Shown in pieces: positions 7,847-38,306 of a stretch of DNA of 64,000 bases. Both the position numbers and the translations under genes were made by a program. How positions within the stretch are numbered: position 1 is the stretch's first letter; each line of letters opens with the position of its first letter. This DNA comes from Corallococcus carmarthensis (lineage in GTDB: Bacteria > Myxococcota > Myxococcia > Myxococcales > Myxococcaceae): assembly GCF_003611695.1 (NCBI RefSeq), contig NZ_RAWE01000022.1:1-64000 (forward strand), given 5' to 3'. The notes under the pieces are model-generated. The model was not told where the DNA came from, did not search any database, and saw only the letters and a list, made by a program, of their open reading frames with translations.

Positions 7847-9412
7847 TCACTGCTTAACCATGAATATACAATTTTCCACCCATGGTAAAGTCCACCGGCA
7901 CGGGGCGATCCGCCTTGGGCCCCTGCCAGCGTCACGCGCCCGGTGGGGGATGACGTAGAGGAAGGACGGGAGCCCTCCGGGTACCCGATCCAGCGAACGC
8001 GCCTGAACGTCACCGGACAGCAAAACGCCCTGCTTCCCGTGGGGTTGGGAAGCAGGGCGAGTGACCCCGACAGGAATCGAACCTGTGGCCTGCGGTTTAG
8101 GAAACTGGCCAGTGGGGATTGAGCGGCCTTCCCCAGCCTTCCTCTGCCTTGCCAAACCTTCGTTTTTATTCACGTTTCGGCCTCCATGTAGGTCCTCAAC
8201 CTTCCTTGGTAATACCTGCGCTTCCTCAGTCTTCACGCCACGTGGACGCCACGGGTCGAGCGTCGCCGCCACGGCGTCGGAGCCCGCGCGAACGTGCTCA
8301 GGCAGCGCCACCGCGTAGTGCGCGCGCGTCGTCTCCACGTCCGCGTGGCCCAGCACTTCGGCCACCAGGCGGATGTCCTTCGTTGTCTGGTAGGCCACCG
8401 TCCCCCACGTGGAGCGCAGGTGCTTGAAGCGCAGTGTGAGGGGAGTGCCCTTGGGCCACAGCTGGAAGTTGCACCGCGGGCACCGTGAGGGGGCATCGTT
8501 CTGGCGCTCCTCCCGGAAGCCGCAGCCTTTGCGCCGACACACGTGCGTCCAGGCCTGCACCAGGCGGGCCCGCACGAGGGCGCGGCGGATGATGTCGTGG
8601 ATTCGCCAGCTCGGCCCGAAGGGCTTAGTCGTTCCGGGCCGCGGGAAGAGGTGGGGGCCCGGCGTCGCTAGCTGTTCCTCAAGCGTCGGTACCAGCACCT
8701 CGGGAATGGGCACCCGACGCTCGCGCCCACCCTTCGTGGTGTCGCGGTGTCCGCTCCGGCGCACGAGGAGGTAGCGCTCCACGAGGTGGACCTCGTCCTT
8801 GCGCAGCACGCGCACCTCGCCCTTGCGGAGTCCCGTCAGCACGCTGGTGGCAACAGCCGGGCGATGCTCCGGGCTCAGGGCGGCGAAGAGCTGGGCGACC
8901 TGCTCCGGCGTGTAGAAGCCCACTTCGCGCTTGGGCACTCGCACCTTCCCAGCCTTCTTGAAGGGATTGGGCCCGGAGAAGAGGCCGGCCTTCTCGTCCA
9001 GGAACGAGTAGAGGCCCTGCCCTGCCATCCGCACGTGCTCACGCGACTGGGGGGAGAGCTTCGTCAGCTTCGCGAGCACCTGAAGCACGTCCGCCGGCGT
9101 GACGGAGTCCACGAGTCTGGTGCCCAGCGCCGTCGCCACGTAGCGCAGCTTCTGCTCCAGGTTGCGCTTGCTGGCGAACTCCGGCGGAAGTGCATCGAGC
9201 CGCATGCGGATGGCCGCAGCCACGGTCGGTACCTCTCGTCGCTCCGCCTCCAGTCCGGCTTCCTCTCGCCACGCGCGATGCTCCACTTCGTGCGCTTCGC
9301 GGCGCGCCTCAGTGAGCGTTCTCGCGGGAATGACCCGACGGTGCGGCTTACCGTCCTTCCCCACCCAGCCAATCCGGAACTTCCCTGACGGCAGCTTCTG
9401 CGCCCAGGCCAC
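7847..9412 (-). CDS. int: tyrosine recombinase (integrase) whose frame crosses the attachment site
   Basis: A 521-residue phage integrase. Catalytic residues: R196 (TGLRKGE), K330..R333 (FKHLR, with Lys where His is usual), H356 (LGHAD) and nucleophile Y366. An inserted zinc ribbon (C292, C297, C311, C314) lies between the first Arg and the second box. The start is GTG at 9412, behind GGAGGGAAG. The catalytic domain ends near residue 380, but the frame continues through the tRNA-Arg fragment (residues about 436-451) and stops in chromosomal DNA at 7847. The last 70 or so residues therefore come from the host. In myxophage Mx8 attP also lies inside the integrase gene, so integration changes the protein tail. 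The free-phage tail should be encoded at the far right end. Confidence 0.9.
   Translation of the reverse strand: MAWAQKLPSGKFRIGWVGKDGKPHRRVIPARTLTEARREAHEVEHRAWREEAGLEAERREVPTVAAAIRMRLDALPPEFASKRNLEQKLRYVATALGTRLVDSVTPADVLQVLAKLTKLSPQSREHVRMAGQGLYSFLDEKAGLFSGPNPFKKAGKVRVPKREVGFYTPEQVAQLFAALSPEHRPAVATSVLTGLRKGEVRVLRKDEVHLVERYLLVRRSGHRDTTKGGRERRVPIPEVLVPTLEEQLATPGPHLFPRPGTTKPFGPSWRIHDIIRRALVRARLVQAWTHVCRRKGCGFREERQNDAPSRCPRCNFQLWPKGTPLTLRFKHLRSTWGTVAYQTTKDIRLVAEVLGHADVETTRAHYAVALPEHVRAGSDAVAATLDPWRPRGVKTEEAQVLPRKVEDLHGGRNVNKNEGLARQRKAGEGRSIPTGQFPKPQATGSIPVGVTRPASQPHGKQGVLLSGDVQARSLDRVPGGLPSFLYVIPHRARDAGRGPRRIAPCRWTLPWVENCIFMVKQ
8062..8105 (-). other. attachment core: 3' fragment of a tRNA-Arg(CCU) gene
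   Basis: Read on the minus strand this is the 3' half of a tRNA: anticodon loop TTCCTAA (anticodon CCT, Arg), stem ACCGC, variable loop, T-arm ACAGG/TTCGATT/CCTGT, and acceptor strand CGGGGTC plus A. The 5' half is absent: upstream the anticodon stem no longer pairs. This is the duplicated core left when a phage integrates into a tRNA gene. The intact tRNA should stand at the other prophage end, beyond base 64000. The core lies inside the integrase frame. Confidence 0.75.
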
Positions 9413-9414
9413 GG

Positions 9415-9618
9415 TTACTTCCCTCCCCGCTGCTGCATCTCACGCCAGGCCAGGAGCCGCGCCGGGTCGAACCGCAGTGAACCGCCCACCTTGAAGCTGG
9501 GAACGCTGCCCTCTGCCGCGAGGCGGTAGAGCGTCTTCTCGCTGATGGCGAGGAACTGGGCGGCACGCCGCACGTCCCACGCGTCCTGCATCTGGCCGTT
9601 GCTGACTTCGCTGTTCAT
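9415..9618 (-). CDS. xis: excisionase-family helix-turn-helix protein
   Basis: A 67-residue protein with the AlpA/MerR-like winged-helix pattern of excisionase-family DNA-binding proteins: 'WDVRRAAQFLAISEKTLYRL' then GSVPSFKVGGSLRF and LLAW. The start ATG has GGGAGAAG upstream. It ends two bases before the integrase start, so the genes are translationally coupled. In phages such proteins direct integrase towards excision. A palindromic operator candidate (9668-9693) lies 50 bases upstream and may control the pair. Confidence 0.85.
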   Translation of the reverse strand: MNSEVSNGQMQDAWDVRRAAQFLAISEKTLYRLAAEGSVPSFKVGGSLRFDPARLLAWREMQQRGGK

Positions 9619-9667
9619 CGACTTCTCCCACCGCCTGCGGCACTGAACGAAGGATTAGGTTTGAAGT

Positions 9668-9693
9668 GTGACAACAACCTGAAAGGTTGTCAC
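9668..9693. promoter_or_regulatory. operator-like palindrome, copy 1
   Basis: The core CAACCT-GAA-AGGTTG (9675-9689) is a perfect 6+3+6 palindrome, flanked by GTGACAA to the left and TCAC to the right, which extends the dyad with a 3-base offset. The same core, with GAG in the centre, occurs at 12386-12400. A repeated palindrome in front of xis-int and in front of an early gene suggests a binding site for a prophage regulator. Confidence 0.5.
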
Positions 9694-9982
9694 CCGGGCC
9701 GCACGGTGCCTGGACTGGAGAACCAGCCAGGGTACGCGCGCGTAGAGCAACTGCCGCGCCAGTTCAGGGTTTAAGCGCGGAGGGGGCGCTTCTCGTCAGC
9801 GCCAGTTCGAGTCCTCGACGACAGCGCACCGCCCCCGGCACGCGAGGGCTGAGCCTCGACGTGGGGAGCGCGAGCGACGGAGGTGCCATGCATGGACGCA
9901 CCGTCCGAGCCTGTGGATCCTGTGCGTGGGGAGCGAAGCGGCGCTGCGTGCGATGACGTCCCATGGCGACCCCAAAACAGGC

Positions 9983-10011
9983 CCCGCTGGTGCCTAGAGA
10001 ACACCAGCGGG
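9983..10011 (-). terminator. strong hairpin, probable leftward terminator
   Basis: A perfect 10-base-pair stem CCCGCTGGTG (9983-9992) with CACCAGCGGG (10002-10011) and a 9-base loop. Read leftward it is followed within five bases by TTTT, giving a plausible intrinsic terminator for the leftward genes at 10194-11532. Confidence 0.5.
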
Positions 10012-10153
10012 AACCCGCGGACACACCTGCAGCACCATCACGTGGTTACAGGGCCCTATCACCGGCCAGACCATCACGACCAACCGGTGAATTCTGTGGT
10101 GAAGCTTTGGGATGCCCGCCGTCTCTAGGTCAGCGGGTGCTGCGGTACTGCTT

Positions 10154-10168
10154 CAGTAATCGTTACTG
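10154..10168. promoter_or_regulatory. small palindrome
   Basis: CAGTAA-TCG-TTACTG is a perfect 6+3+6 palindrome, 25 bases downstream of the stop of the kinase-like gene. It has the same geometry as the two CAACCT palindromes but a different sequence. It could be a protein-binding site; no function is shown. Confidence 0.3.
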
Positions 10169-10193
10169 CTGGTGCGACTGAAAAGCAAGTCGA

Positions 10194-11165
10194 CTACTTC
10201 GAGATCGAGCGCGAAGCGCCGTCTTCCGGCTCCGCCTTCACCGGCGCGTAACACCCGCCCTTGTACTCGTAGAGGTCATCAGGACACGGCGGAGCGTCCT
10301 CAACATCCGCCTTCACCCAGCAACCGCCGTTGATCTCCTTCTGACTTCCGCGGCAGGGCGGCCTGCGCTGCACCTTGAAGGGCCGGGACGGCATGTCGCG
10401 AGCGATGAAGGGAGACACCTCGCTGACGAGGAGCACAGGCGCCTCGATCTCTTCGACCGCAGTCTGCCCAACGCCATTGGCCAGGACGGTGGACTCAGGC
10501 GTCTGGAGCTCCGCGACAACCGTGCTGGGAGGCTCATTGGATGGCGCGTGCTGGCGCTGCGGCCAAATGAGGTTGCCAAGAAACGCCGCAACGAGCAGTC
10601 CGAGCGCAGCGTCCTTCCAGTGCTGGACGACGAACGCCCTGCCCCTGTTCGCATGACGTCGCGCCAAGCCACGCCAGCGCTGTGCCCGGGTGAGCGGCGG
10701 TGACAACAGGTGCTCACGCAGCTCCGGCGCCCCCATGGCGCGGTCCAGAAGCTTCGGAAGATCCTCGCTCACAGCTACCAACTCCTCGTGCACCTTGGCG
10801 GTAGCCGCCGCGTGCGGCAGTCGCACCTGGAGCGCGCGGAACGCGGGGGAGTCGGAGGACGTCCAGGTGACCTCGAGGGACGCGCTGGGAAACTGCTCCA
10901 GCACTTCCTCCGGCGTTGTCTGGAGGAGCTGCGACTCCTCAACCTCCGGCCTGACGACGATGGCTGGCAGTCCCGTTTGGACGTGGCGCGCCAGGAAGAC
11001 GTCACCCTGCTCCGTCCGGCGCTCAATGCACCGGCTCAGGTGGTACTGCCCCACACGGCCGGTCTGCCGGCCCTCGTTGGCGCGCGGCTCTCCCGGACTC
11101 GCACCACCACCTCCGCGCGCCCGCTGAGACGCACCACCGCCCCGGCTATTCACACCGCTGCCCAT
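10194..11165 (-). CDS. truncated kinase-like membrane protein lacking the catalytic core
   Basis: A 323-residue protein if started at ATG 11165; a longer frame to 11309 would overlap the regulator gene. After a Gly-rich start, 'VGQYHLSRCIERR' and 'GDVFLARHVQTGLPA' resemble the N-lobe of myxobacterial Ser/Thr kinases, but there is no HRD, DFG or APE. One membrane helix (AALGLLVAAFLGNLIW) follows. The C-terminus has the Cys pairs typical of myxobacterial kinases: PCRGSQKEINGGCWVK and PPCPDDLYEYKGGCYAPV. It therefore looks like a kinase with its catalytic core deleted, or a dedicated pseudokinase. It follows the RHH gene on the same strand. Confidence 0.6.
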   Translation of the reverse strand: MGSGVNSRGGGASQRARGGGGASPGEPRANEGRQTGRVGQYHLSRCIERRTEQGDVFLARHVQTGLPAIVVRPEVEESQLLQTTPEEVLEQFPSASLEVTWTSSDSPAFRALQVRLPHAAATAKVHEELVAVSEDLPKLLDRAMGAPELREHLLSPPLTRAQRWRGLARRHANRGRAFVVQHWKDAALGLLVAAFLGNLIWPQRQHAPSNEPPSTVVAELQTPESTVLANGVGQTAVEEIEAPVLLVSEVSPFIARDMPSRPFKVQRRPPCRGSQKEINGGCWVKADVEDAPPCPDDLYEYKGGCYAPVKAEPEDGASRSISK

Positions 11166-11238
11166 CGCGCACTCTCGCTCGCCTGCCTGGAGGGGACTCC
11201 AGCGACCTGACTCTACGGCGTTTCCCTGACTCTCCGGG

Positions 11239-11532
11239 CTACTTCTTCGGCGACCGTCCGCGGCGCGGGGCTTCATGAGGCTCCGGCGTCGTCGAAGCCA
11301 GCGCGTCACTCTGCTCCGCCTTCTTCTCGCGGTAGTCGGCGATGGCCCAGCGGAGGAAGTGCTCGCACACGTCGCTGATCGTCCGCTTCTTCTCGGTTCC
11401 GCTCTCGACCTCAGCGATCTCCCTCAGCTCCTCCCACATCGACTCAGGGAGATAGACCGTGGAGCCCTTCTTCTTCTCTTCAGGCGGGGGAAACAGCGGC
11501 ATGGGGCGCTCACTTTCGACGGCTCTCTGCAC
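11239..11532 (-). CDS. ribbon-helix-helix type DNA-binding protein
   Basis: A 97-residue protein whose core, GSTVYLPESMWEELREIA followed by RTISDVCEHFLRWAI, fits a ribbon-helix-helix regulator: a short strand and two helices. The tail is charged. Start GTG at 11532 is supported by AAAGGAGG six bases upstream. It is transcribed leftward away from a long AT-rich palindrome (11604-11647), so it probably regulates itself and the divergent rightward early genes. The RHH call rests on pattern only. Confidence 0.6.
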   Translation of the reverse strand: MQRAVESERPMPLFPPPEEKKKGSTVYLPESMWEELREIAEVESGTEKKRTISDVCEHFLRWAIADYREKKAEQSDALASTTPEPHEAPRRGRSPKK

Positions 11533-11582
11533 TGCTGGCCTCCTTTCGTATGCGTCGGTCGCAGTTCGGTCAACGACGCAAA

Positions 11583-11611
11583 GATGTAGTCGCCAAGAAC
11601 TCCAACGTCAA
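11583..11611 (-). promoter_or_regulatory. candidate promoter of the RHH gene
   Basis: Reading leftward, TTGACG (11611-11606) is separated by 17 bases from TACATC (11588-11583). The -35 box is good and the -10 box weak. The -35 overlaps the outer arm of the 11604-11647 dyad, so a protein bound there would block it. Confidence 0.4.
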
Positions 11612-11647
11612 ACTTGCACTAAACTAAATTTAGTTTAGATTGACGTT
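11604..11647. promoter_or_regulatory. AT-rich divergent operator with nested palindromes
   Basis: An inner perfect 20-base palindrome, CTAAACTAAA followed by TTTAGTTTAG (11619-11638), lies inside outer arms AACGTCAA (11604-11611) and TTGACGTT (11640-11647). It stands in the 100-base gap between the leftward RHH gene and the rightward early genes, and is strikingly AT-rich for this DNA. It is a likely regulator binding site, possibly for the adjacent RHH protein. Confidence 0.6.
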
Positions 11648-11707
11648 CATTGAGGCGGACGGACGGGGCTCCACACGGGAGAGGGCGGATGGGCGGGCGC
11701 GAGTCGG

Positions 11708-11836
11708 GTGGCCGACGAGGACGCCAGCAGGAGCAGCACGGACACCAGCGAGTCAGGGCAGGCGAAGCGCGCGAAGGCGAAGCAGCTGTGCAACTCGGGG
11801 CACGCGGTGCCCCAGAAGGAGGAGTGCCGTGGCTGA
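11708..11836 (+). CDS. small early protein, hypothetical
   Basis: A 42-residue frame from GTG 11708 with a plausible soluble composition: Ser/Thr-rich start (DASRSSTDTSES), a basic stretch (AKRAKAKQLCNS) and a C-terminus HAVPQKEECRG. Its stop overlaps the next gene by eight bases (GTGGCTGA), as in coupled phage genes. No ribosome site is obvious. No function recognised. Confidence 0.4.
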   Translation: MADEDASRSSTDTSESGQAKRAKAKQLCNSGHAVPQKEECRG

Positions 11837-11999
11837 GAAGAAGACGAAGGCGCCGCGCGAGGTGCTGCGCGCCTACTTCGATGAGCACGAGGTGGAGCCG
11901 GAGGTTCTGCGCGCGTGGCAGGAGCTGGACACCACCATTGGAGGCGTGGCGCTCCGCATGGAGGATGACGTCGCTCGGCTGAAGGGCGGCGCGAAGTAA
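11829..11999 (+). CDS. small acidic early protein, hypothetical
   Basis: A 56-residue helical acidic protein (REVLRAYFDEHEVEPEVLRA). The GTG start at 11829 is preceded by AGGAGGAG at good spacing and is preferred to a long upstream extension of poor composition. It overlaps the preceding small gene and shares its stop with the next start (TAATG). Function unknown. Confidence 0.6.
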   Translation: MAEKKTKAPREVLRAYFDEHEVEPEVLRAWQELDTTIGGVALRMEDDVARLKGGAK

Positions 12000-12352
12000 T
12001 GCCCCTGCACGAGCTGGCCGAGGCGCTCACCGTCCTCGCTCGTGAGGGCTGGACGCCGCCGGACCGCGACGCGGCGAGCCTCGCGCAACAGGTGCGCGAG
12101 CTGGAGGCGCAGCAGGCCCAGACGCAGGAGGCGCTGCAGGCCGTCGAGTACCTCCAGGAGGCGTGCGAGCCCGACGGCACCGACGCCACGCGCGAGCGGT
12201 GGCTGCGCCTCCAGCGCCGCGTCACCAGTTCGCGACTCCAGTTGGCCCGCCTCAACGAGGCGGAGGTGTATCTGCGCGCGGAGTTGGAGCGCCAGGTGTG
12301 GCTCGCGCAGCACCTTCGCGCGCGGGCCGAGTCGCAGCGGGCCGCCGCGTAG
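11999..12352 (+). CDS. coiled-coil early protein, hypothetical
   Basis: A 117-residue protein, almost entirely helical: 'ASLAQQVRELEAQQAQTQEA' followed by a second helix rich in Arg and Glu. Its ATG overlaps the stop of the upstream gene (TAATG), so it belongs to the same early operon. No family recognised. Confidence 0.65.
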   Translation: MPLHELAEALTVLAREGWTPPDRDAASLAQQVRELEAQQAQTQEALQAVEYLQEACEPDGTDATRERWLRLQRRVTSSRLQLARLNEAEVYLRAELERQVWLAQHLRARAESQRAAA

Positions 12353-12385
12353 CACGTCAGACCTCATTGGCAAGACGAAGGCATT

Positions 12386-12400
12386 CAACCTGAGAGGTTG
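12386..12400. promoter_or_regulatory. operator-like palindrome, copy 2, overlapping a ribosome site
   Basis: CAACCT-GAG-AGGTTG repeats the palindrome at 9675-9689 with one central base changed. It lies two bases before the TTG start of the next gene, and its right arm includes GAGAGG, which would be that gene's ribosome-binding site. Protein binding, or folding of the hairpin in RNA, could both block translation. Confidence 0.5.
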
Positions 12401-12402
12401 CA

Positions 12403-12612
12403 TTGCCGAATGGACGCCGCTCCCCCTGCCCCGCCTACGCCGAGCACCCGGACAGAAGCTGGGTGCTGTGCGAGCGCGAGTATGGACACGAGGGACGGCA
12501 CCGGTGTCGGGACATGGAGTGGGACTGCCTCACCCCGGAGGACGAGGTGCAGGCCGAGTTGCGAGAACTGCTGCGCCAGGCCGAGCAGGCCGCAGGCGAG
12601 CACTACGAGTAG
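12403..12612 (+). CDS. small Cys/His-containing early protein
   Basis: A 69-residue protein from a TTG start with CPAYAEHPDRSWVLCEREYGHEGRH: paired Cys and an HEG.H motif, a layout found in small phage proteins that may bind zinc. The C-terminal half is an acidic helix. It sits directly downstream of the palindrome at 12386 and 12 bases before the ERF gene. Confidence 0.55.
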   Translation: MPNGRRSPCPAYAEHPDRSWVLCEREYGHEGRHRCRDMEWDCLTPEDEVQAELRELLRQAEQAAGEHYE

Positions 12613-12624
12613 GAGCGGACGGCA

Positions 12625-13422
12625 ATGACGGGCACCAACACAACCACGGGCACCGCGGAGAAACCGCCGGAGCGCAGCTTGGTGCGCAAGCTGGCCGAGG
12701 TCATGGGCGAGGTGGAGCGCGTCCCGAAGTCAGGGCGCAACGACTTCCACCGCTACGACTACGCGACCGAGGCAGACATCGTCTCGGCCGTTCGGAAGGC
12801 CATGGCGGACCGCGCCCTCATGCTGATTCCCTCCGTGGTGAAGACGGAGTGGCGCGAGGTGGAGCGCAACAAGGGCGGCAAGGACCGAATCGCAACGCTG
12901 ACCGTGCGCTTCACACTGACCGACGGCGACAGCGGCGAAGAGCGGTCGTTCGAGGTGCTCGGCGAGGGGCAGGACCAGGGCGACAAGGCCACGTACAAGG
13001 CGCTCACCGGAGCGGTGAAGTACGCCTTGCTCAAGCTCTTCCTGATTCCCACTGGCGATGACCCGGAGGATGACGGGCAAGGCCAAAGCCAGCAGTCCCA
13101 GCGCGGAAGCCAGCAGCGCCCTCGTCAAGCAATGGACGACGGACCGCCCCCTCAGCGCACGGGTGCCCCGGCTCCTCGCACTACTCCTCGGAGTGGAGGT
13201 GCCGACGACGTCGCCGCCGCCATCGTCTCTGAAGCCGAGCAGGTGACCAAGGAGGAGTTCCCCGCGCTCTACGGGCGTGCACAAGGCCTCCCCAAGGGGA
13301 GCAAGGCTCGGGAGGTGGCGGGCGAAGCCGTGAAGGCCTCCGCAAAGCGCCTGGGCTTCTCTGCCAAGCAGGTTGCCGCCATGCAGAAGCCGGTGGGACG
13401 CGAGCCCGGCGCGGAGGGCTGA
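12625..13422 (+). CDS. erf: ERF-family single-strand annealing protein
   Basis: A 265-residue recombinase of the ERF superfamily, which anneals single DNA strands in phage recombination. The core, residues 15-150, contains the motifs KSGRNDFHRYDYATEADIV, DGDSGEERSFEVLGEGQDQGDKA and 'YKALTGAVKYALLKLFLIP' before GDDPE, which are diagnostic of ERF proteins. A Gln/Pro-rich linker and a smaller C-terminal domain follow. ATG at 12625 has GGAGCGGAC upstream. It lies in the rightward early operon. Confidence 0.9.
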   Translation: MTGTNTTTGTAEKPPERSLVRKLAEVMGEVERVPKSGRNDFHRYDYATEADIVSAVRKAMADRALMLIPSVVKTEWREVERNKGGKDRIATLTVRFTLTDGDSGEERSFEVLGEGQDQGDKATYKALTGAVKYALLKLFLIPTGDDPEDDGQGQSQQSQRGSQQRPRQAMDDGPPPQRTGAPAPRTTPRSGGADDVAAAIVSEAEQVTKEEFPALYGRAQGLPKGSKAREVAGEAVKASAKRLGFSAKQVAAMQKPVGREPGAEG

Positions 13423-13424
13423 CC

Positions 13425-13670
13425 GTGCGCCGCTGCCGCCCGCGCAAGCCGTCCTCCGAAGTCGTTCGGCACCGGTCCAACCGGGCCGAGTACTTCGCGG
13501 GCCTGCGCGCACTGCGCGGCGAACAGCAGGAACTGCCAGCGCCGCGCCAACTCGACGTACGCGTGGACTGCTGCGCGAAAGCAACCATCCAGGACTGCGC
13601 GTGTGGTGGCTCGCGCGTCTGCCCGGACCATGGCGGCCCGGTGTGCTTCGGGAAGTTCAGCCACGACTGA
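13425..13670 (+). CDS. small Cys-rich protein, hypothetical
   Basis: An 81-residue protein with a basic N-terminus and a Cys-rich C-terminus (DCCAKATIQDCACGG then CPDHGGPVC), suggesting metal binding. The GTG start lies two bases after the erf stop. It is the last clear gene of the early operon. Function unknown. Confidence 0.55.
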   Translation: MRRCRPRKPSSEVVRHRSNRAEYFAGLRALRGEQQELPAPRQLDVRVDCCAKATIQDCACGGSRVCPDHGGPVCFGKFSHD

Positions 13671-13742
13671 TTGCGCAGCACCGCGCGTTCCGACAGCCGC
13701 ATCACGCGGCCCGGGCCGATCTCCTAGCGCGCGGGGTTGCAA

Positions 13743-13765
13743 CCCGGTGGCATTGGGCCACCGGG
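13743..13765. terminator. hairpin after the early operon
   Basis: A perfect nine-base-pair stem CCCGGTGGC/GCCACCGGG with a five-base loop, 73 bases after the last early gene. No T-run follows, so this may be a weak terminator or an RNA structure. Confidence 0.4.
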
Positions 13766-13949
13766 CCTTGTCGGTGGAGCGGCCAGCACAACACCTGGCT
13801 GGACGGAGCGTTCCACCTCACCCCGCGCGGCATAGGGCCTCGCGGGGCCTCTCACGGCGCTGGCGTTGAGCGCTGCCCGGCGAGGGCGGTCCCCACTCCC
13901 GTCCTCGCCGGGTCCTTCTCTCGCAGTGCCACCACAAGAGGCCGTCCTC

Positions 13950-14330
13950 ATGAACGAAGTCGTCGCAGCGATCATCCTTGGCGTGTTCCCCACAGCCCCG
14001 CAGAAGCGAAAGCTTGAGAAGTTGCGCGGTCCGGACGGTGAGTTCGTGGGCTTCCCACTCAAGGACGTCCCCTCCTTCATTGATGGCTCCACGACCGGAA
14101 GCGGTGTGCCCGCCGCCCTCGGCATCCCCGTGGCCATCGCGAACAGGTTCAAGGAGGCCCCCGGCGCCGTGGACCTTCCCGTCTGTCGCGTCGAGGACTT
14201 GTCCAAGGTGCTGAAGAAGCCGCTGGCCTTGGCGACGAAGCGGTGGAAGCAACTCGCGAAGTGGGCTTCCGCGAATGGCGTGGAACTCGGAGAGCCATCG
14301 CTGATCCTCGGACACATCAACAGAGGCTGA
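13950..14330 (+). CDS. hypothetical protein
   Basis: A 126-residue protein starting at ATG 13950 with AAGAGG eight bases upstream. The first 15 residues are hydrophobic (VVAAIILGVFP) and the rest is a small soluble domain with PKDVPSF-like and LPVCRVEDL segments. No family recognised. It is rightward, between the early operon and the lipoprotein gene. Confidence 0.55.
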   Translation: MNEVVAAIILGVFPTAPQKRKLEKLRGPDGEFVGFPLKDVPSFIDGSTTGSGVPAALGIPVAIANRFKEAPGAVDLPVCRVEDLSKVLKKPLALATKRWKQLAKWASANGVELGEPSLILGHINRG

Positions 14331-14383
14331 GCCCCACGAGCAACACCGCGCCACCACCTAGCGCGCGCAACACCAGCAGCACC

Positions 14384-14451
14384 TGCCGATGACGGGGCGA
14401 GGGCCCCCGCTGGACGTCCCAGCGCTCCCGGTTCGAGTCCGGCGTCGGCAA
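14384..14451 (+). ncRNA. tRNA-like cloverleaf, possibly degenerate
   Basis: TGCCGAT (14384-14390) pairs with GTCGGCA (14444-14450) as an acceptor stem, followed by a discriminator A. A T-arm with loop TTCGAGT has four of five pairs, and an anticodon-like arm CGCTG/CAGCG holds a seven-base loop GACGTCC. However, the position corresponding to the invariant U33 is A, the D-arm is poor, and the total is only 68 bases. It could be a decayed phage tRNA gene or a coincidence of GC-rich sequence. Confidence 0.3.
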
Positions 14452-14486
14452 CTCCGTCCAGCCGCAACACCAATCCCCGGAGTCGT

Positions 14487-15620
14487 ATGTCTTTCTCCCC
14501 GCGTCTTATCGCGCTGGCACTCGTGTGCCTCGTCGCGTGCAGTTCCAGCGAGTACAGCACCCGTGGTGAGTCCGAAGCGAAGCCCCGCGCGGACACGGCT
14601 GGCGTCATCCTCTTCGGCCTCCCGTCCTTTCCCAAAAACATGCAGAGCTACTGCCGCAACAGTTCGGACACGGCGATGACCAACTACGAGGCCAAGCGGG
14701 GGGCCATCCCCGACGACCTCGTCAAGTGCACCTCCGTCCATCTCCAGGCGGATTGCCTACGCGCAGCCCTCGCAAAGCACAGCTCCAACTGGAGCGGCGC
14801 CGACGAGGCCTGGGAGGCACGCTTCCCGGCTGCTGACTGGGACAACCTTCCCAACACCGCCTACGCGGATGCCGAGGATGCATTGGACAATGCGGAGGAC
14901 ACGCATCCGGCGTGCAAGGGCAAAGGGGTGGCGTTGAGGGCCGGAGCCATCGTCGGACACATCCTCGCCGGAGCCGGCACCGCAGACGGCAAGCCCTTGG
15001 ACTGGACCGCACACAAGAGCCCCGCCCGGGCGGCCACGTTCGACTTCGAGTCGTTCATCCCCGCCCGGGCTGCTGACTTCGGCGCCCCTCGCGAGGCGCA
15101 GGAGGTCTGGACAGCTTGGCGCAACGAAGCCATCACCGAGGCCCGCTCGGCGGCCGCCAACGCATACCTCGCACAGAAGGAGGGGCGGCTCGACGTGGAC
15201 GGCGCGAAGTGCTTCGTGTGGACCCGCTTCTCCCGTGCCTCCGGTGGGAGCATGAGCCTGATTGATGCCCGAGCCATCGCGCTGGGGGAGAAGATCCGGA
15301 AGGTCCCCATCAACGCGCCGGCCTGGGTGAAGGCCACGTCGAACAAGATCCAGGATGAGGCCGAGGAGAAGTGCGACGACTCGGACAACATCGGCGTCAA
15401 ATACATGAACCGCATCGAGAGTGACGCGCGGCTGGCGGCACTTCGCTCCGAGGCGGACGCAGCCATGATGGGAATGCTGAGGTTCGTCAACAACGCGAAG
15501 ATATTCGTGGAGGCTGCCGCGACTGGTGGACTGAGCCCCGCGAACCTCCCTCTACCGTTCCTCGGCGGGGACCTCGTCGAGAAGTACCGCCCCCACAAGG
15601 GCTACGACGGCCCGCTGTAG
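14487..15620 (+). CDS. lipoprotein, hypothetical
   Basis: A 377-residue protein with a lipoprotein signal (IALALVCLVAC, then SSSEYS), so membrane-anchored and exported. The mature part is mixed helical with scattered cysteines (SYCRNSSD, VKCTSVHLQADC, HPACKG, AKCFVW, EEKCDD), suggesting disulfides. No catalytic motif seen. It is a rightward accessory gene of the prophage; phage lipoproteins often act in superinfection exclusion, but nothing here proves that. Confidence 0.65.
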   Translation: MSFSPRLIALALVCLVACSSSEYSTRGESEAKPRADTAGVILFGLPSFPKNMQSYCRNSSDTAMTNYEAKRGAIPDDLVKCTSVHLQADCLRAALAKHSSNWSGADEAWEARFPAADWDNLPNTAYADAEDALDNAEDTHPACKGKGVALRAGAIVGHILAGAGTADGKPLDWTAHKSPARAATFDFESFIPARAADFGAPREAQEVWTAWRNEAITEARSAAANAYLAQKEGRLDVDGAKCFVWTRFSRASGGSMSLIDARAIALGEKIRKVPINAPAWVKATSNKIQDEAEEKCDDSDNIGVKYMNRIESDARLAALRSEADAAMMGMLRFVNNAKIFVEAAATGGLSPANLPLPFLGGDLVEKYRPHKGYDGPL

Positions 15621-15767
15621 GCACTGATGTGGCTGGCCAGCGAGAGCGAGGCCGCCGCGACTCCGAAGCACTTCAAGTACCGAGCGGGCGGCACAGCGCG
15701 GGCCGCCCGCCCGCTTCCCGCGCGCCGTCACGACGGCGGCGCGATCACCCCCAACAACGAGACGAAA

Positions 15768-16178
15768 GTGGCGACGAAGACGGAGACGAAGAGCAGTGGT
15801 GGCCTGCTGGAGCTGGCAGAGAGGCTGGAGGAGGTCGCGCAGCTGCTGCGTGACACTGTGGCGAAGCTGGGTGGCGTGGTGACGTCCGCGCCCGCGGCGA
15901 AGGCGCCCCTGGCGAGCGCGGCCAAGCCGTCGAAGCCCGGCACGGCGAAGGCGGCGCAGGAGGACGGCACGCGCGTGTGCGCCATCAAGGGCTGCGGCAA
16001 GCCCAGCCGGACGAAGGGCTACTGCGCGGCGCACTACCAGAAGCTGCGCAACCTGGAGAAGACGAAGCGGCGTCCGGCGGACTGGGTGGACGACGCGAAG
16101 CCGAACACGGTGGAGGACGTCCTCCTGCCGCGCGGCCGCGCCGCCTCGAAGGCGCTGGCGGAGGCGAGCGCCCAATGA
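15768..16178 (+). CDS. small zinc-ribbon protein of myxobacterial 'vegetative protein' type
   Basis: A 136-residue protein from GTG 15768 (ATKTETKSSGGLLELAER). After an acidic helix and an Ala/Lys-rich linker comes CAIKGCGKPSRTKGYCAAHY, a CxxxxC...CxxH zinc-binding motif, then an EDVLLPRGRAA end. Proteins of this plan recur in myxobacterial genomes; their role is unknown. The frame extends upstream to 15627 but that part is of poor composition. Its stop overlaps the next start (ATGA). Confidence 0.6.
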   Translation: MATKTETKSSGGLLELAERLEEVAQLLRDTVAKLGGVVTSAPAAKAPLASAAKPSKPGTAKAAQEDGTRVCAIKGCGKPSRTKGYCAAHYQKLRNLEKTKRRPADWVDDAKPNTVEDVLLPRGRAASKALAEASAQ

Positions 16179-17053
16179 AGCCAGCGGACGTCAGCGGCCT
16201 GCCGAAGGAGCTGGAGGAAGTCCGTCGCATCGCACTGGGCGAAGTGCCCGCCGATGAGGCGCAGGTCCGGGCCGCGCTGGCTCAGGCATGGGCCTGGCTC
16301 GCGCCGCTGACGTCCGCACTATTGCCGGCTGAACCGTCGCCCGGCGCGGCGAAGCACACGACCGAGGATGTGGAACGGTGGTTCCGGGCAGTGGTCGCGC
16401 GGACAAAGGGTTCCACCGAAACGGTGATGGCCCGGATGCTCCGGGACGCCGCGCTGGAGGGCGCTAAGGTGCCGGGGCTGGTGGCGGACAACGCCGTCCT
16501 CCTGAAGCTCGCCCTGGATGACGTCCCCGCGTGCGATTGGCAAAGCGGGCGGGGCACGTGTGACGAGACGGGGCGCCAGCCGCGGTGCCAATTCTGCCTG
16601 CGCCGGGATGAGCTGATGAACAGCCCCGGCGCATCCATGCTCGCAGAGCACGAGACGAAGGTGTCCGCCCTCCAGGCCCAGGTGGCGCATCTCACGGCCG
16701 AACTGGACAACCTGAAGGACTGCGAGCAAGGGGCGAATGCCGTTGCAGTTGAGGCGATGGCTGCGCAGCGCAAGGCCGAGTCCGAGCAGGACGAAGAACG
16801 CAAGGCGGTGGAGGCGATGACGAAGGCCATCGACAAGCACCTCCCCGGCATCTGCCCGGCGCAGTCCCCGGACGAGGGCATCCACCTGCTGGCCGAGCAG
16901 CGCGACGCCGCCCAGGCCCGCGTGGCGGAGCTGGAGCGCGAGTTGCGCATTCGCAACGATGACCACGCTTTCGAGCAGGACATGCGCATCAAGACCGAGT
17001 CCGAGCGCGACGCCCTCCGCGCAGGTGGAGGCGGTGCGCGACAGGGCGACTGA
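16175..17053 (+). CDS. coiled-coil protein, probably truncated by a frameshift
   Basis: A 292-residue protein beginning at ATG 16175, overlapping the upstream stop. It has a helical N-terminal domain, a cluster of five cysteines (PACDWQSGRGTCDE, then CQFCLRR) typical of phage zinc-binding proteins, and a long coiled coil from about residue 160. It ends abruptly as LRAGGGGARQGD, while the adjacent frame reads LRAQVEAVRDRATEV, which continues the coiled coil. A frameshift near 17024 therefore probably shortened it. Confidence 0.6.
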   Translation: MKPADVSGLPKELEEVRRIALGEVPADEAQVRAALAQAWAWLAPLTSALLPAEPSPGAAKHTTEDVERWFRAVVARTKGSTETVMARMLRDAALEGAKVPGLVADNAVLLKLALDDVPACDWQSGRGTCDETGRQPRCQFCLRRDELMNSPGASMLAEHETKVSALQAQVAHLTAELDNLKDCEQGANAVAVEAMAAQRKAESEQDEERKAVEAMTKAIDKHLPGICPAQSPDEGIHLLAEQRDAAQARVAELERELRIRNDDHAFEQDMRIKTESERDALRAGGGGARQGD

Positions 17054-17237
17054 GGTGGCGGCGGCGCGGCAGGATCTGGCGGAGTGGGATCAGCAGACCG
17101 TGCTCTCATTCGAAGGGCTCCAGAAGGAAGGGCTCTCTGCATTCACCGAACTCTCGGCGGCGTTGGGGGAGGTTGTTCCTCGCCATCCCCGCCCCGCCCG
17201 CCGAGACGCGAGCCGACGAGGCGTCATGCGCGGGTGA
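17025..17237 (+). pseudogene. out-of-frame continuation of the coiled-coil protein
   Basis: This frame begins VEAVRDRATEVAAARQDLAE and continues the heptad pattern of the gene at 16175, from which it is displaced by one reading frame. It ends after a basic tail at 17237. It is best read as the former C-terminus after an indel near 17024; separate translation from GTG 17025 is possible but no ribosome site is evident. Confidence 0.45.
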
Positions 17238-17259
17238 CGTCCCACCGTGCGAGGACTCC

Positions 17260-17703
17260 ATGTGCGGCGACCCGGTGTGCACGAAGCACCGCGGCGCAAC
17301 GCCCGCCCCGAACTCTCCGGCTCTTCCGGAGGGTTCGACTCCGCCCGCCGAACCTGAAAGCGGGGCTTACACGTTGGCGGCGCGACGCTGGCTGGCGGCC
17401 GTTGAGCGCGCGGCCTCGAATGAGGCCGTCGCGAGTCGCTACCTAGTCAACGCCAATGGCGCATCCGTCCACCCCGGGGCGCTGCGCGAGGCCGTCCGCT
17501 GGGTGCTCCGCGGAGACGAGCCGGTTTGCGGCGAGCCCTCCACCGTGCAGGGCAGCGGCAAACCCGCCTCAAACCCCATGCTGTCCGCGCTCGACGTGCG
17601 CACCGCGGCGCCGCCGGGTCTGCGAGTGCGCGCCTTCGTTAACACCGTCATCGCAACAAGGGCCGGGCTCTCCTCTTCCTGTCCCGGCTCCTCACTCGCT
17701 TGA
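17260..17703 (+). CDS. hypothetical protein
   Basis: A 147-residue protein from ATG 17260, with GAGGA five bases upstream. It starts MCGDPVCTKHRG, has a Pro/Ala-rich linker, then a helical segment (YTLAARRWLAAVERAASN) and a Ser-rich end. It follows the coiled-coil gene in the same direction and precedes the NACHT gene. Function unknown. Confidence 0.5.
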   Translation: MCGDPVCTKHRGATPAPNSPALPEGSTPPAEPESGAYTLAARRWLAAVERAASNEAVASRYLVNANGASVHPGALREAVRWVLRGDEPVCGEPSTVQGSGKPASNPMLSALDVRTAAPPGLRVRAFVNTVIATRAGLSSSCPGSSLA

Positions 17704-17821
17704 GAGAGCGTTGCGGCACTTCAGTGAACCTCTGACCTCTCTGCATCCCGAGCCGCTTGAGGTGCGCCTCTCGTCTCGGGTCCTGGGTTCTGCCAAAATG
17801 CCCACGGGGGGCAGCATTCGC

Positions 17822-20800
17822 ATGAGAGAGCACATGCCCAGGCAAATTCTGACGTTGTGGCTCTGCGCCACCATGACACTCGGTGACCTCGCACAGGCCG
17901 CGCAGACACAACAGGCACAAGACGTTTCACCGAGGCTCCGCGGGCTGCTCGCAGCTCTCGATGATCCGAGCGGCCAAGTGGCGGCTGGAGCGCTGCGGTT
18001 GTTGATCAAGGAGAAGCGGGTTCCGGATGAACAGATCCCGCGTCTCGGCCGCATGCTCAAGGACCCCAATCCGCAAACCCGCCTTGACACAGCGCAGGCT
18101 TTGGGAGTCCTCGGCAAGGCCGCCAAGCAGCACGCCCCCCTCCTCACCGGCCTTCTCAGGGATCCAGACGTGTCCGTCCGCCAAGCTGCTGCGGAGGCCC
18201 TGGGAGCCATGGGTGAGGCCGCCAAGGATCAGGCTCCCCTCCTCGTCGACATGCTCAAGGACCCGGATGTGAACGTCCGAATTGCAGCAACGTTTGCGCT
18301 GAGAGAAATGGGCAAGGCCGCACAGGATCAAACCCTACGACTTACCGGCTTGCTGAAAGACCAGCACGGTGGTGTCCGCGCAGCAGCAGTGCAGGTGCTG
18401 GTAGCCATAGGCAAAGTTCCCAAGGAGGAGGCTCCGCACCTCGGCGACCTGCTCAAGGCCCCCAAGGAGAGCGTCCGCTATGCAGCAACGCAAGCGCTGG
18501 GCGCCCTGGGCGAGGCAGCCAAGGAGCAAGCTCCACTCCTCGTTGGCATGCTCAAGGATCCGGATAGTGGCGTCCGTGAGGCCGCAGTTCTAGCACTGGG
18601 TAACATGGGCGAGGCAGCCAAGGAGCAGGCTCCACTCCTCGTTGGCATGCTCAAGGACCCTAATGAGAATGTCAGTAGAGGAGCAGCAAAGGCTCTGGGC
18701 GCCATGGGCGAGGCAGCCAAGGAACAAGCCCCCCTCCTCGTTGACATGCTCAAGGATCCAGACTGGTCCATCCTCATCCCTGCTTTGCAGGCGCTGCAAG
18801 CCATGGGCAAGGCCGCCAGGGAACAGGTCCCGCGCATTAGCAACCTGCTCAAGGATCCGTCACCGTTCCGTCGAATTGTAGCAGCGGAATTGCTGGGACA
18901 CATGGGCGAGGCAGCCAAGGAGCAGGCTCCACTCCTCGTTGGCATGCTCAAGGACCCTAATGAGAATGTCAGTAAAGGAGCAGCAAAGGCTCTGGGCGCC
19001 CTGGGCGAGACAGCCAAGGAGCAGGCTCCATACCTCGCCGACATGCTCAAGGACCCTAATGAGAAAGTCCGCGATGCGGCAGTGCAAGCGCTGCAATACA
19101 TGGGCAAGGCCGCTAAGGATCAAGCTCCGCACCTTGTCGGCCTGCTCAAGGACCCCGAGAAGGACGTCCGCAAGGAAGCAGCGGCGGCACTGGGAGCCAT
19201 GGGCGAGGCAGCCAAGGAGCAGGCTCCATACCTCGCCGACATGCTCAAGGACCCCGATGAGAAAGTCCGCCTTGCAGCAGCGAAGGCGCTGAGCGACATG
19301 GGCGAGTTTGACAGGAAGTACGCGCCTCTAGCTCTGGAGCTTCTGGAGAACGAAACAGTTCAGTATGACTATGAAGCCAAGGGTCTCCTCATGACCATGG
19401 CCCCGCTCGAACTCCAGCACGTTGTCCTGCTCCTGGCGAAGGCAAGCGCGAATCCATGGGATCGCAACGACTGGCTGTTATGCGCTCACGTTACGGGCGG
19501 TGGTGAGCCACCGGTGGAGCGCGTCCTACGTTGGCTCCCAAGGCGGGCCTTCGCGGGACTCCCAACGGAGCTGACGCTCGAGGAGGCCCGGGAGACGATG
19601 CATGCGTTCGCCGTGGTCTGGCAACATTCCGGGAAGTACCCTGACCTGCGGGATGATCTAGCGGAGCAGATTGTACGAGTGGCCAGCCTTACCAAAGGCC
19701 AGTGGACGCTCACTGACGACAAGCTACTCGTGCAGCATCAGACAAACCTGAAGGCCTCCTACCCGGCGCATGCCGAGAGACTTCAGGCCATCAGGTCCTC
19801 TCTAGAGAGCTGGGGGAGAGTGAAGACCTTCGCGTGGACCTGGGTGGGGCACCTCTGCTTCTGGTTGCTCCTCCTGTTCGTCTACCCACGCTCGCCGCAA
19901 GTCCAGGCGGTTTTCTTCTGGAATCCGTGGGTGCGCACCATCACGGGCTTCGGGTATGTGGGCCTTCTGTTGACATGGGTGCCGATCCTGCGGCGCCGCC
20001 TCCTCGCGCCCTTTGCGAACCAGCTCCTGGCGGATGCAGATCTCGAGCGTTTCCCCAAGGAGAGTTACTTCCACGGCTCCCAGGTCTTCATCCCGTCCGC
20101 GGGCCGGAGCGTCCCCCTGCTCTCCGCCGTCCCCCAGCTGCGAGGCCAAGTGGTCTTGGAGGGAGCCTCGGGCCTGGGCAAGTCGCTGTTCATCCGGTAC
20201 CTGCTCCGCCACTCGAAGCAGCTCACGGTGTTTCTGCCCGCAGAGCGATGCCGGGAGGGTGTACTTGAGGCCATCCAGGCCAAGCTGGAGGGGCATGCGA
20301 AGGACACCGCCTTCCTGCAGAGCATCATTTACAGCGGCGCACTGGACATCTACATCGACGGACTCAACGAGGTGACGGCAGACACGCGTGCTCGCATCGT
20401 CCAGTTCGTCGAGCGCAACTTCCACGGCAACATCCTGCTTGCCACCCAGCGCATGGAGTGGACACCGCCCATCACGGCGCGCCTGTACGTGCTGCAGCCC
20501 CTCTCCGACGCCCAGGTGTCCGAGTTTCTGGCCAGCCGTGAGGTGCTGCTGGGTGAGAAGGCGCGGCTGCGTGGTCCAGAGTACCTCCAGTCATGTGAGC
20601 GATTCGTGCAGCGAGTCCTCGCCCCCGAGCAGCCCGAGGAGCTGCGCCTGTCGATGCGCGAGGTGCTCTCCAACCCGATGGACCTCACCGTCATCGCGCA
20701 GATGCTGGGCGAGGGGCACTCGCCGGATCTGTTCCGCCTGCGGCAGCAGCAATACGAGCTGATGGCCAGGGACTACCTGGAGGTCAACCTCGCAGAGTTC

Positions 20801-21295
20801 CCGCTGAATGGGTTCGCCGAGGAGTGCCACAGGATGCGGCTCGAGGATCGGCCGTCTCTGCCGGAGGAGCGCTTCGGTAAGGAGTTGCTGCGCCTGGAGT
20901 CCTTCAAGATCGTGGTGCGCCGGCAGTGGAAGGGGCCTGACGGGCGGGAGCACCGCGAGTGGCGTTTCCGCCATGACAAGCTTCAAGAATTCTTCATCGC
21001 CCAGGCACTCCTGGGGCAGGGCAACCCCCGCATTGCCCAGCACATGGACGATCCGCGCTTCCGGGGCGTCTACTTCCTGTTGGCGCTGCTGATGGATCCG
21101 GAGAGCGCGCATCAACTGCGAGATCGGCTGGTCGTTCACGCCGCCAGGACCCGCGACCACAGCGTGAGCGATGAGTTCGTCACCCTGCTGGAGGCGCGGC
21201 GCAAGTCCGAGCAGCTCCTGCATGCGCCGCCCCCGCGACCGCAGGATGACTCAGATCCCTCAAACAAGCACGGAGGAGGCGAGCGCGTGGCATGA
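17822..21295 (+). CDS. HEAT-repeat / membrane / NACHT-like NTPase
   Basis: A 1157-residue protein from ATG 17822. In order: a hydrophobic N-terminus (ILTLWLCATMTLG), thirteen 33-residue HEAT/PBS-lyase-type repeats (about 67-495), a helical region, two hydrophobic helices (about 673-690 and 706-722), then a NACHT-like STAND NTPase with Walker A GASGLGKS (781-788), Walker B LDIYIDGLNE, and the C-terminal FRHDKLQEFFIAQ motif typical of NACHT winged-helix regions. Many bacterial NACHT proteins guard against phage, so a prophage copy may exclude other phages; that is inference. The topology conflicts: a cleaved signal peptide plus two helices would put the NTPase outside the cytoplasm, whereas the RRR after the second helix argues that it faces the cytoplasm. 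Confidence 0.75.
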   Translation: MREHMPRQILTLWLCATMTLGDLAQAAQTQQAQDVSPRLRGLLAALDDPSGQVAAGALRLLIKEKRVPDEQIPRLGRMLKDPNPQTRLDTAQALGVLGKAAKQHAPLLTGLLRDPDVSVRQAAAEALGAMGEAAKDQAPLLVDMLKDPDVNVRIAATFALREMGKAAQDQTLRLTGLLKDQHGGVRAAAVQVLVAIGKVPKEEAPHLGDLLKAPKESVRYAATQALGALGEAAKEQAPLLVGMLKDPDSGVREAAVLALGNMGEAAKEQAPLLVGMLKDPNENVSRGAAKALGAMGEAAKEQAPLLVDMLKDPDWSILIPALQALQAMGKAAREQVPRISNLLKDPSPFRRIVAAELLGHMGEAAKEQAPLLVGMLKDPNENVSKGAAKALGALGETAKEQAPYLADMLKDPNEKVRDAAVQALQYMGKAAKDQAPHLVGLLKDPEKDVRKEAAAALGAMGEAAKEQAPYLADMLKDPDEKVRLAAAKALSDMGEFDRKYAPLALELLENETVQYDYEAKGLLMTMAPLELQHVVLLLAKASANPWDRNDWLLCAHVTGGGEPPVERVLRWLPRRAFAGLPTELTLEEARETMHAFAVVWQHSGKYPDLRDDLAEQIVRVASLTKGQWTLTDDKLLVQHQTNLKASYPAHAERLQAIRSSLESWGRVKTFAWTWVGHLCFWLLLLFVYPRSPQVQAVFFWNPWVRTITGFGYVGLLLTWVPILRRRLLAPFANQLLADADLERFPKESYFHGSQVFIPSAGRSVPLLSAVPQLRGQVVLEGASGLGKSLFIRYLLRHSKQLTVFLPAERCREGVLEAIQAKLEGHAKDTAFLQSIIYSGALDIYIDGLNEVTADTRARIVQFVERNFHGNILLATQRMEWTPPITARLYVLQPLSDAQVSEFLASREVLLGEKARLRGPEYLQSCERFVQRVLAPEQPEELRLSMREVLSNPMDLTVIAQMLGEGHSPDLFRLRQQQYELMARDYLEVNLAEFPLNGFAEECHRMRLEDRPSLPEERFGKELLRLESFKIVVRRQWKGPDGREHREWRFRHDKLQEFFIAQALLGQGNPRIAQHMDDPRFRGVYFLLALLMDPESAHQLRDRLVVHAARTRDHSVSDEFVTLLEARRKSEQLLHAPPPRPQDDSDPSNKHGGGERVA
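18020..19306 (+). repeat. 13 tandem 99-base repeats encoding HEAT units
   Basis: The HEAT array is a coding tandem repeat with a 99-base period. Most units diverge, but 18604-18703 and 18901-19000 are identical except for one base, 297 bases (three units) apart. This points to recent unequal recombination or gene conversion within the array. Confidence 0.85.
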
Positions 21296-21444
21296 GGCAG
21301 CGGCCAGGAAGGTGCGGATGAAGTAGAGGACACCGCGAGTGGACTGGGCAGAGTTTAACAGGAGGACATTTGCGGACACGCCCTGGTCCTCGTCCCGGAT
21401 GAAGTCTGCCGCGCTTGCATATTGGCCCAAGTTGGAGGGTCGAC

Positions 21445-21632
21445 ATGCAGGGGCCTGGAGTGAAGCTGAAGCAGGCGGAGAAGGAGGCGCTGGACGCGCT
21501 GATGTCTCGTACGGTGGCGTCTGCGACACCTGCTCCATCCCCGGGCGCAACAACCAGTGCGGCTCGCTGTGCAGCAACCCCGCGCAGTGCCAGTACTCCG
21601 CGTCCGGCAACTTCCACACCTGCGGATTCTGA
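21445..21632 (+). pseudogene. small Cys-rich peptide gene with a frameshift
   Basis: ATG 21445 has a strong ribosome site (GGAGGG) and opens with a leader-like helix KLKQAEKEALDALMSR. Downstream, in another frame, is a compact Cys-rich segment: GGVCDTCSIPGRNNQCGSLC, then CQYSASGNFHTCGF and a stop at 21632. Joining the two near base 21500 gives a peptide of about 60 residues with six cysteines. As it stands, the first frame runs on in low-quality sequence to 21681. It may be a sequencing error, a real mutation or a recoding site. It could be a precursor peptide or disulfide-rich peptide; no modification enzyme is nearby. Confidence 0.45.
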
Positions 21633-21753
21633 CGCCCGCTCGTCTGTGGACGGCCGTCCCTGCCGCGAGATGGGACTGTAGGGCAAGCCCAGAGGGGAGA
21701 CGCAGGGCACGCGCGCTGCACACCTCCGGAGGGACACGCCTCACGGAGCCAGC

Positions 21754-22794
21754 ATGGACGCCATCTCACGCAGCCGCACCGCTCTCCTCCCCACCACCTA
21801 CCGCGAGCCCGCAGAGCAGCCCCAGCGCTCCACGCCGAAGCCCCGGGTCCTGGAGAGGTCAATCAACACCGTCGACGCATTCACGCCGCACACGCCCACC
21901 CACAAGGCGCTCGTAGACCAGGTCCGCCGCACGACGACGCCCACGGCCATCTCCATCCGCCCGCCTACCGAGGGTCTGACGAAGTCGGCGGAGAGCGAGC
22001 CGCGCGTCTCCGCCCAGGGCTTCTTCAGCTCCGTCGGCGACGCGCTGAAGGACTTCGGCGGGCGCGTGGTGGACGGAGTGGCTGGCATCGGCAAAGGCAT
22101 CTACGACAGCGTCAAGGGCACCCTGAAGAACACCTGGGAGATGGCGGAGACGTTCGGAAAGGGCATCGCCAACATCTTCACTGGCCGCTTCGCGGAGGGC
22201 TTCACCCAGCTCGGACTGAGCGTCCTCAAGGCCATCCAGACGCCGACGGACGGGCTCCTGCGCCTGGGAGGAAGCATCCTCAGCGCCATCCAGACGATGC
22301 TCTTCATCGAGCCCACGAGCCGCAAGCTGACGGGCGACGAGCTGGCGGCGCTGCACGAGGTGTACGGGGACTCCATCGACTACACGCGCATCGAGATCAA
22401 GGAAGGCAACGCGGGGCTTCTCACGGTGGGGGGACGACCCTTCACCCATGGGGACACCATCTACATTCCCAAGGACTCACTGCCCCTGCAGCCGGAACTG
22501 CTCGTGCACGAGGCGGCCCACGTGTGGCAGCACCAGCACGGGGGCAACGACTACATGTCCGAGGCCCTGGTGGCGCAGCTCTTCGGCGACGGCTACAACG
22601 TCGGCAAGGCCCTCCGGCAAGGCAAGTCCTGGGAGCAGATGAACCCGGAGCAGCAGGCGGAGTTCATTGAGTTGGCCTTCGGTCAGGGCTGCTTCGAGAC
22701 GCCGCCGGCGCCGTTCGAGCTCGGCGGCAAGGACTACACTCAACAGCTTGAGGCCGCGAAGAAGTCCCTCCGCGCCGGCCAGGGAGCACCGTGA
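21754..22794 (+). CDS. putative zinc metalloprotease (HEAAH motif)
   Basis: A 346-residue protein with a disordered N-terminus, an amphipathic helical middle (KGIYDSVKGTLKNTWEMAET, AEGFTQLGLSVLKAI) and a C-terminal domain carrying LLVHEAAHVWQHQ (HExxH at 252-256). Similar domains occur in myxobacterial DUF4157-like proteases and toxin-associated proteins. There is no signal peptide. The stop overlaps the GTG of the next lipoprotein gene, so the two form a pair. It may be an effector with its partner lipoprotein as immunity or anchor, but this is a guess. Confidence 0.6.
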   Translation: MDAISRSRTALLPTTYREPAEQPQRSTPKPRVLERSINTVDAFTPHTPTHKALVDQVRRTTTPTAISIRPPTEGLTKSAESEPRVSAQGFFSSVGDALKDFGGRVVDGVAGIGKGIYDSVKGTLKNTWEMAETFGKGIANIFTGRFAEGFTQLGLSVLKAIQTPTDGLLRLGGSILSAIQTMLFIEPTSRKLTGDELAALHEVYGDSIDYTRIEIKEGNAGLLTVGGRPFTHGDTIYIPKDSLPLQPELLVHEAAHVWQHQHGGNDYMSEALVAQLFGDGYNVGKALRQGKSWEQMNPEQQAEFIELAFGQGCFETPPAPFELGGKDYTQQLEAAKKSLRAGQGAP

Positions 22795-23204: not shown

Positions 23205-23443
23205 CCGCCCGCCGGACTGGAGCGCGGCACCGCGAATGCGGCGTTCGAGTAGGCAGATGATGAGAATGACCGCCGCCAAGGCCACTATAGGCGGGCCGGA
23301 GGTGCTTTTGCCATATCTGCGCAAGCATACCGTCACATTGCCAAGCTTGACAGAGGGCAAGATATTGGGCTTTGCCGGCTTGTCCTTACTTTTCCGCCTG
23401 TGCTATAGTTGAACTACAACCCATTGCCCTTCCTAATCTTCCT

Positions 23444-25302: not shown

Positions 25303-25311
25303 GGAGCCACC

Positions 25312-25770: not shown

Positions 25771-25789
25771 GCCCGCCGGAGGGCTGAGC

Positions 25790-25832: not shown

Positions 25833-25845
25833 GGGTGCGACTCAT

Positions 25846-26957: not shown

Positions 26958-27002
26958 GCTCCTTCAACCCGGCTGACACGACGGATTCTTCCGGGCCGTG
27001 AA

Positions 27003-38305: not shown

Positions 38306-38306
38306 G

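Follow-up and report, generated by a model that had tools for sequence, protein, structure and literature searches.

Integration into tRNA-Arg(CCU) is predicted to exchange the C-terminus of the integrase of a Corallococcus siphovirus prophage

Introduction

The locus described here raises the question of what happens to a phage integrase when its gene runs through the attachment core and, in the lysogen, ends in the DNA of the host. Until now, Mx8 was the single studied phage whose integrase was known to be altered by integration; in it, attP lies within int and integration is described as changing the specificity of Int rather than inactivating it (review, PMC6070905); a similar integration principle has been reported, also in review, for Mx9. 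Integrases that disrupt their own gene have been said to occur only in archaea (review, PMC8371274). An earlier note on the same DNA had described a 521-codon integrase frame that contains a 3' fragment of tRNA-Arg(CCU) and stops in chromosomal sequence, and had proposed that the Mx8 switch operates here in a siphovirus with a different target. We examine this layout at tRNA-Arg(CCU) with both prophage ends in hand.

Sequences compared

The window covers positions 1-64,000 of contig C144 (74,417 bp) of the 10.8-Mb source genome, Corallococcus carmarthensis (G000). A close relative, G029, apparently Corallococcus sp. AS-1-6, whose integrase is 95% identical to that of the window, served for comparison. 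In addition, we surveyed 39 non-redundant integrase loci, all myxobacterial and related to one another rather than all independent, in which a tRNA T-arm lies 60-125 codons after the catalytic Tyr. Paired prophage ends were anchored on the T-arm; the T-stems of one pair (G091) differ, and the final statistics exclude this doubtful pairing.

Table 1. Features of the prophage and its integrase gene (window coordinates unless stated otherwise)
Feature	Position	Strand	Basis or remark
Prophage, left part in window	8059..64000	.	Onward to C144:74417, then C421:1-9136
Host-derived tail of lysogen integrase, ~70 codons	7847..8058	-	Length not different from other frames
Tyrosine integrase ORF, lysogen form, 521 aa	7847..9412	-	GTG start; 521 codons
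Native tRNA-Arg terminator, 13-bp stem then TTTT	8022..8059	-	Terminator scan; dG -28.7 kcal/mol, z -4.3
Attachment core, 47 bp, GTTTCCTAAACCGCAGGCCACAGGTTCGATTCCTGTCGGGGTCACTC	8059..8105	-	Identical to 3' end of tRNA-Arg(CCU), G000:C421:9092-9166
Putative arm-type repeats in int frame (CGTGGCGTCCACGTGGCGTGAA; GGAAGGYTG repeats)	8124..8253	-	Putative assignment
Excisionase-like HTH_17 ORF, 67 aa	9415..9618	-	PF12728, E 7.8e-10; ends 2 bp before int start
Phage-form int tail and PP2C gene	On C421, outside window		Same prophage, right end

Results and Discussion

The right end of the prophage is absent from C144 and is located on another contig of the same assembly, C421. In G029, a single contig (G029:C1:187842-268306) holds both prophage ends, int with its core, the intact tRNA and the tail, and the source sequence aligns to this prophage in order, C144 from 8059 onward followed by C421 158-9293. 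Because both contigs are colinear with one element of G029, they are taken as two parts of one prophage, which would measure about 75.5 kb if C144 and C421 abut. PHROG matches to a tape measure protein, the central tail fibre J, terminase, head morphogenesis and major head proteins identify the element as a siphovirus, as the earlier note had supposed. A tRNA-Thr(CGT) is predicted within the prophage (14384-14452). Two stretches of the window, 3916-5010 outside the prophage and 24365-25838 inside it, both match the same place in G029 (~209.6-210.8 kb) at ~75%, and each carries a lipoprotein-like ORF with a possible immunity-like partner.

The integrase ORF matches Phage_integrase (PF00589, E 7.7e-14) as well as the PHROG integrase family, and its catalytic domain displays the Arg, an HxxR-like box and the Tyr nucleophile, Tyr366. 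In the alignment, R333, H356 and Y366 are invariant and R196 is nearly so. AlphaFold predicts residues 1-371 as folded and residues 372-521 as disordered (pLDDT <50), which places the end of the catalytic domain near residue 371, ~65 codons ahead of the attachment core. Four further invariant residues, C292, C297, C311 and C314, form a zinc-ribbon-like insert in the catalytic domain (residues ~285-320, window 8447-8580), and the integrases of Mx9 and Mx4 have a similar Cys pattern. The HTH_17 ORF directly upstream of int is found in G029 too.

The core corresponds to integrase codons 436-452, inside the frame and downstream of Tyr366. Beyond it on the integrase side, CGCCCTGCTTCCC...GGGAAGCAGGGCGTTTT represents the native tRNA-Arg(CCU) terminator, which also follows tRNA-Arg(CCU) in five relatives with a single unoccupied copy each (G017, G027, G028, G033 and G034). 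Because it matches these empty sites, the DNA left of the core is assigned to the host; the tRNA fragment in the frame and the stop in host sequence thus stand as the earlier note had read them, with ~70 host-encoded codons after the core as the host-derived tail that it had postulated. On C421, tRNA-Arg(CCU) is intact and is followed by phage DNA with a different, phage-type hairpin common to G029. The GTGGCGY element of the putative arm-type repeats is present at this other phage end also. In G029 near 187,842 (L008 6353-7000), the integrase-side core is followed by a phage-type hairpin and not by the host terminator, which suggests a tandem or an earlier integration at the same tRNA. A core-like match at 3824-3869, considered as a second active end, was rejected as a degenerate copy: this 46-bp sequence (87%) reproduces the tRNA-Arg 3' end and the start of its terminator, and may be what remains of the attachment site of an older element left of the prophage.

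Joining int to the C421 side leaves the frame open for 106 more codons after the core, giving a 558-residue Int whose TGA overlaps the ATG (ATGA) of a 241-aa PP2C-type ORF. The earlier note had predicted just such an arrangement for the right end, an intact tRNA-Arg(CCU) followed by an alternative tail in frame with int, and it is borne out in the source genome and likewise in G029, where the tail has equal length and the same stop/start overlap. The PP2C-type phosphatase gene (L006:8045-8770) lies behind the phage-form tail in G029 as well. Homologues of the tail occur behind tRNA-Arg(CCU) in G015 and G024, and relatives behind other tRNA fragments; they share the motif GC-x2-C...AC-x2-H, with G54, C55, C58, A70, C71 and H74 invariant. 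Between the source genome and G029, substitutions in the tail fall 14/11/23 by codon position, and synonymous and nonsynonymous codons number 20/21 in frame compared with 8/34 and 5/34 in the other frames, a comparison that points to a modest coding signal. The AlphaFold model of the tail, calculated at low depth, consists of three helices with pLDDT ~76-93 in the motif part; a fold search of this model against the PDB returned no match, the phage tail has no Pfam match (HTH_17 being the separate ORF upstream of int), and the phage records searched gave no convincing relative.

The survey places this tail in a wider context. Of the 39 loci, which are partly related, 33 have an int frame that continues open into the core, compared with 17 and 11 for the other two frames and 10.4 predicted from shuffles. 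At tRNA-Arg(CCU), 10 of 13 int genes pass the core, in one or the other of the two phases in which the tRNA sequence is open, and the remaining three (G061, G025 and G006) stop 22-44 codons before it. Fusion is not essential, since these three integrases stop short; in view of them, of phages with a separate tail gene (Mx4) and of the codon usage ahead of the core, it may be partly neutral. Some phage-form tails carry in frame an HTH_17 domain of excisionase type (G041, G034B and G043, and G091 with its doubtful pairing), and a further HTH_17 domain is encoded by an ORF of its own upstream of int in these elements. At L147, L148, L150 and L153, tRNA cores are followed by orphan HTH_17 domains that would fuse in frame to Int after excision. 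Taken together, the surveyed genes suggest that an attP inside int is a common, perhaps usual, layout among myxobacterial viruses.

The two forms of the tail differ clearly when the ends of 12 paired prophages are compared. In the phage form, a median of 107 codons stay open after the core in the int frame, against 38 and 17 in the two others; p is 0.004 for all 12 pairs and 0.024 when each lineage is counted once. Lysogen tails are not longer than other frames in the same 12 prophages (medians 44.5 vs 44 and 25; p=0.49). Moreover, phage-form tails end on the start of an ORF of 100-383 codons in 8 of 11 pairs, and lysogen tails end on the start of such an ORF in 0 of 11, the next ORF there being <=33 codons. 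Two paired elements, G006 and G075, have no long phage-form tail under the T-arm-anchored pairing. From these lengths and the coupling to the next ORF, the phage tail behaves like a true gene end and the host tail is probably accidental; in the model, the host tail also looks unstructured.

Proposed mechanism

We consider it probable, on the arrangement of the two ends, that attP lies inside the 3' part of int, that int is in frame through the core in the phage circle, and that integration swaps the C-terminus. In the free circle, int would read through the tRNA-Arg(CCU) core into ~106 phage codons and end on the PP2C start codon; the product would be an Int of 558 residues that bears the Cys/His motif at its C-terminus. 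Integration would cut int at the core, leaving the chromosome with an intact tRNA-Arg, downstream of which the phage tail would be stranded with no start codon evident. The lysogen gene would keep the whole catalytic domain and gain the ~70 host-encoded codons, so that integration is predicted to swap the last fifth of the integrase for host sequence. Both Int proteins would presumably be made and differ. The lower activity or stability that the earlier note had suggested for the lysogen form finds no support in these comparisons, and for Mx8 the review describes altered specificity of Int (PMC6070905). The most likely consequence is that the state of integration can be read from the form of Int, the phage tail having its role before integration only; such a layout would offer a recombinase simple means of sensing whether it is integrated. 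On C421 the early genes share the orientation of int, which implies that integration would also uncouple xis-int from the early genes downstream.

A broader reading, which we put forward tentatively and would not bet on at even odds, is that in myxobacterial temperate phages attP routinely lies within int and integration removes a C-terminal regulatory domain, so that the form of Int reports integration and sets the direction of recombination. The domain removed would be the Cys/His module here and the excisionase-like HTH in others.

Alternative explanations

An accidental open frame in GC-rich DNA, without meaning, appears a very improbable account of the passage through the core. It would suit the host tail, whose length is no different from that of other frames. 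Yet chance does not account for the excess of int frames open into the core over the other two frames in the survey, nor for a conserved in-frame motif in a tail whose end is coupled to the next ORF, and for the phage side this explanation is already largely refuted by the sequence comparisons. Another reading, which we regard as unlikely, is that the tail is an independent gene downstream of attP, akin to p08 of Mx4, which came to lie in frame by chance when int lost its stop in the arm region, the swap then having no role. The Cys/His block might indeed be such a gene, since homologues of the tail can stand alone: in Mx4, int and p08 are separate ORFs, and a homologue on C530 has its own Met start. 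The three integrases that stop before the core point the same way, as does the codon usage ahead of it, where a codon-position test on 45 codons (52/72/75) shows no clear third-position bias and gave no support for selection at the protein level, so the protein sequence there appears loosely constrained. Against an independent gene, however, the tails of the source genome, G029 and others share no conserved internal start codon with a Shine-Dalgarno sequence, and the int frame is open for ~100 codons in several lineages. Zinc-type tails are, in addition, in frame with int in both G000/G029 and G015, despite a different core phase (phase 2 and phase 1, respectively).

A further possibility concerns the lysogen transcript. 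In the lysogen, the int frame crosses the tRNA-Arg terminator, with its T-run, ahead of the stop codon at 7847, a layout repeated in G078, and on the phage side the hairpin is strong and has no T-run. Speculatively, some lysogen int mRNA may thus lack a stop codon. Taken to its end, the proposal would be that the lysogen form is the functional product of the switch: int mRNA terminates at the tRNA terminator, tmRNA rescues the non-stop message, Int is degraded, and the prophage is locked in. We judge this decidedly improbable: ribosomes trailing RNA polymerase may block formation of the hairpin, the lysogens of G029, G074 and G015 have no such terminator after the core, and the lysogen Int of Mx8 is reported as active with altered specificity (PMC6070905). 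An exchange of C-termini between two integrase forms remains our preferred reading of the locus. Apart from any mechanism, the locus calls for caution with prophage int annotations, which often end in host or tRNA sequence.

Comparison with known systems

The closest parallel in architecture is Mx8. Its Int (IntP/IntR; AF396866) likewise has a tRNA 3' end as attP inside int, downstream of the catalytic domain, and its int acquires a new 3' end on integration (PMC6070905). The position of attP within Mx8 int, which the earlier note had stated, agrees with the gene itself, whose frame passes through a tRNA T-arm located 62 codons beyond the catalytic Tyr, and with the same review. The two systems differ in that Mx8 reads the tRNA fragment antisense, whereas the window phage reads tRNA-Arg(CCU) in sense; the Mx8 tail has no evident sequence relation to that of the window phage, and Mx8 is a short-tailed phage and not a siphovirus.

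Among the integrases of the phage collection, Mx9 Int (AY247757) is the nearest, at 28.8% identity, and, like the phage form described here, extends well past the catalytic Tyr in a C-terminal tail; this likeness concerns Int and its tail. The Mx9 tail carries HTH_17, as do those of G041, G034B and G043, whereas the window phage has a Cys/His motif in its tail and HTH_17 in the separate gene upstream, and so does not belong with the Int-HTH_17 fusions. Mx4 p07-p08-p09 shares with the window phage the order int, p08-like, PP2C, and p08 likewise terminates in GGGR, with an ATGA in which it overlaps the following gene. In Mx4, however, int comes to a stop, and a different frame encodes p08 as an ORF of its own.

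Outside the myxobacterial phages, the archaeal SSV-type (suicidal) integrases also have the att site in the integrase gene, which is split by integration (PMC8371274). There, however, the enzyme loses its catalytic part and becomes inactive, whereas the catalytic domain of the window Int stays whole, so this Int is not of the SSV type; the result bears on the statement that such integrases are restricted to archaea, though here the catalytic part survives. In mycobacteriophage BPs, attP likewise lies in a reading frame and integration changes the C-terminus of a protein, acting as a switch (PMC4557955), but the gene concerned is the repressor, whose phage form carries a degradation tag, and not the integrase. 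With its core in the int frame downstream of Tyr366 and, at the other end, an intact tRNA with a tail in frame, the window element is, as far as its sequence indicates, of the Mx8 type and a new member of it.
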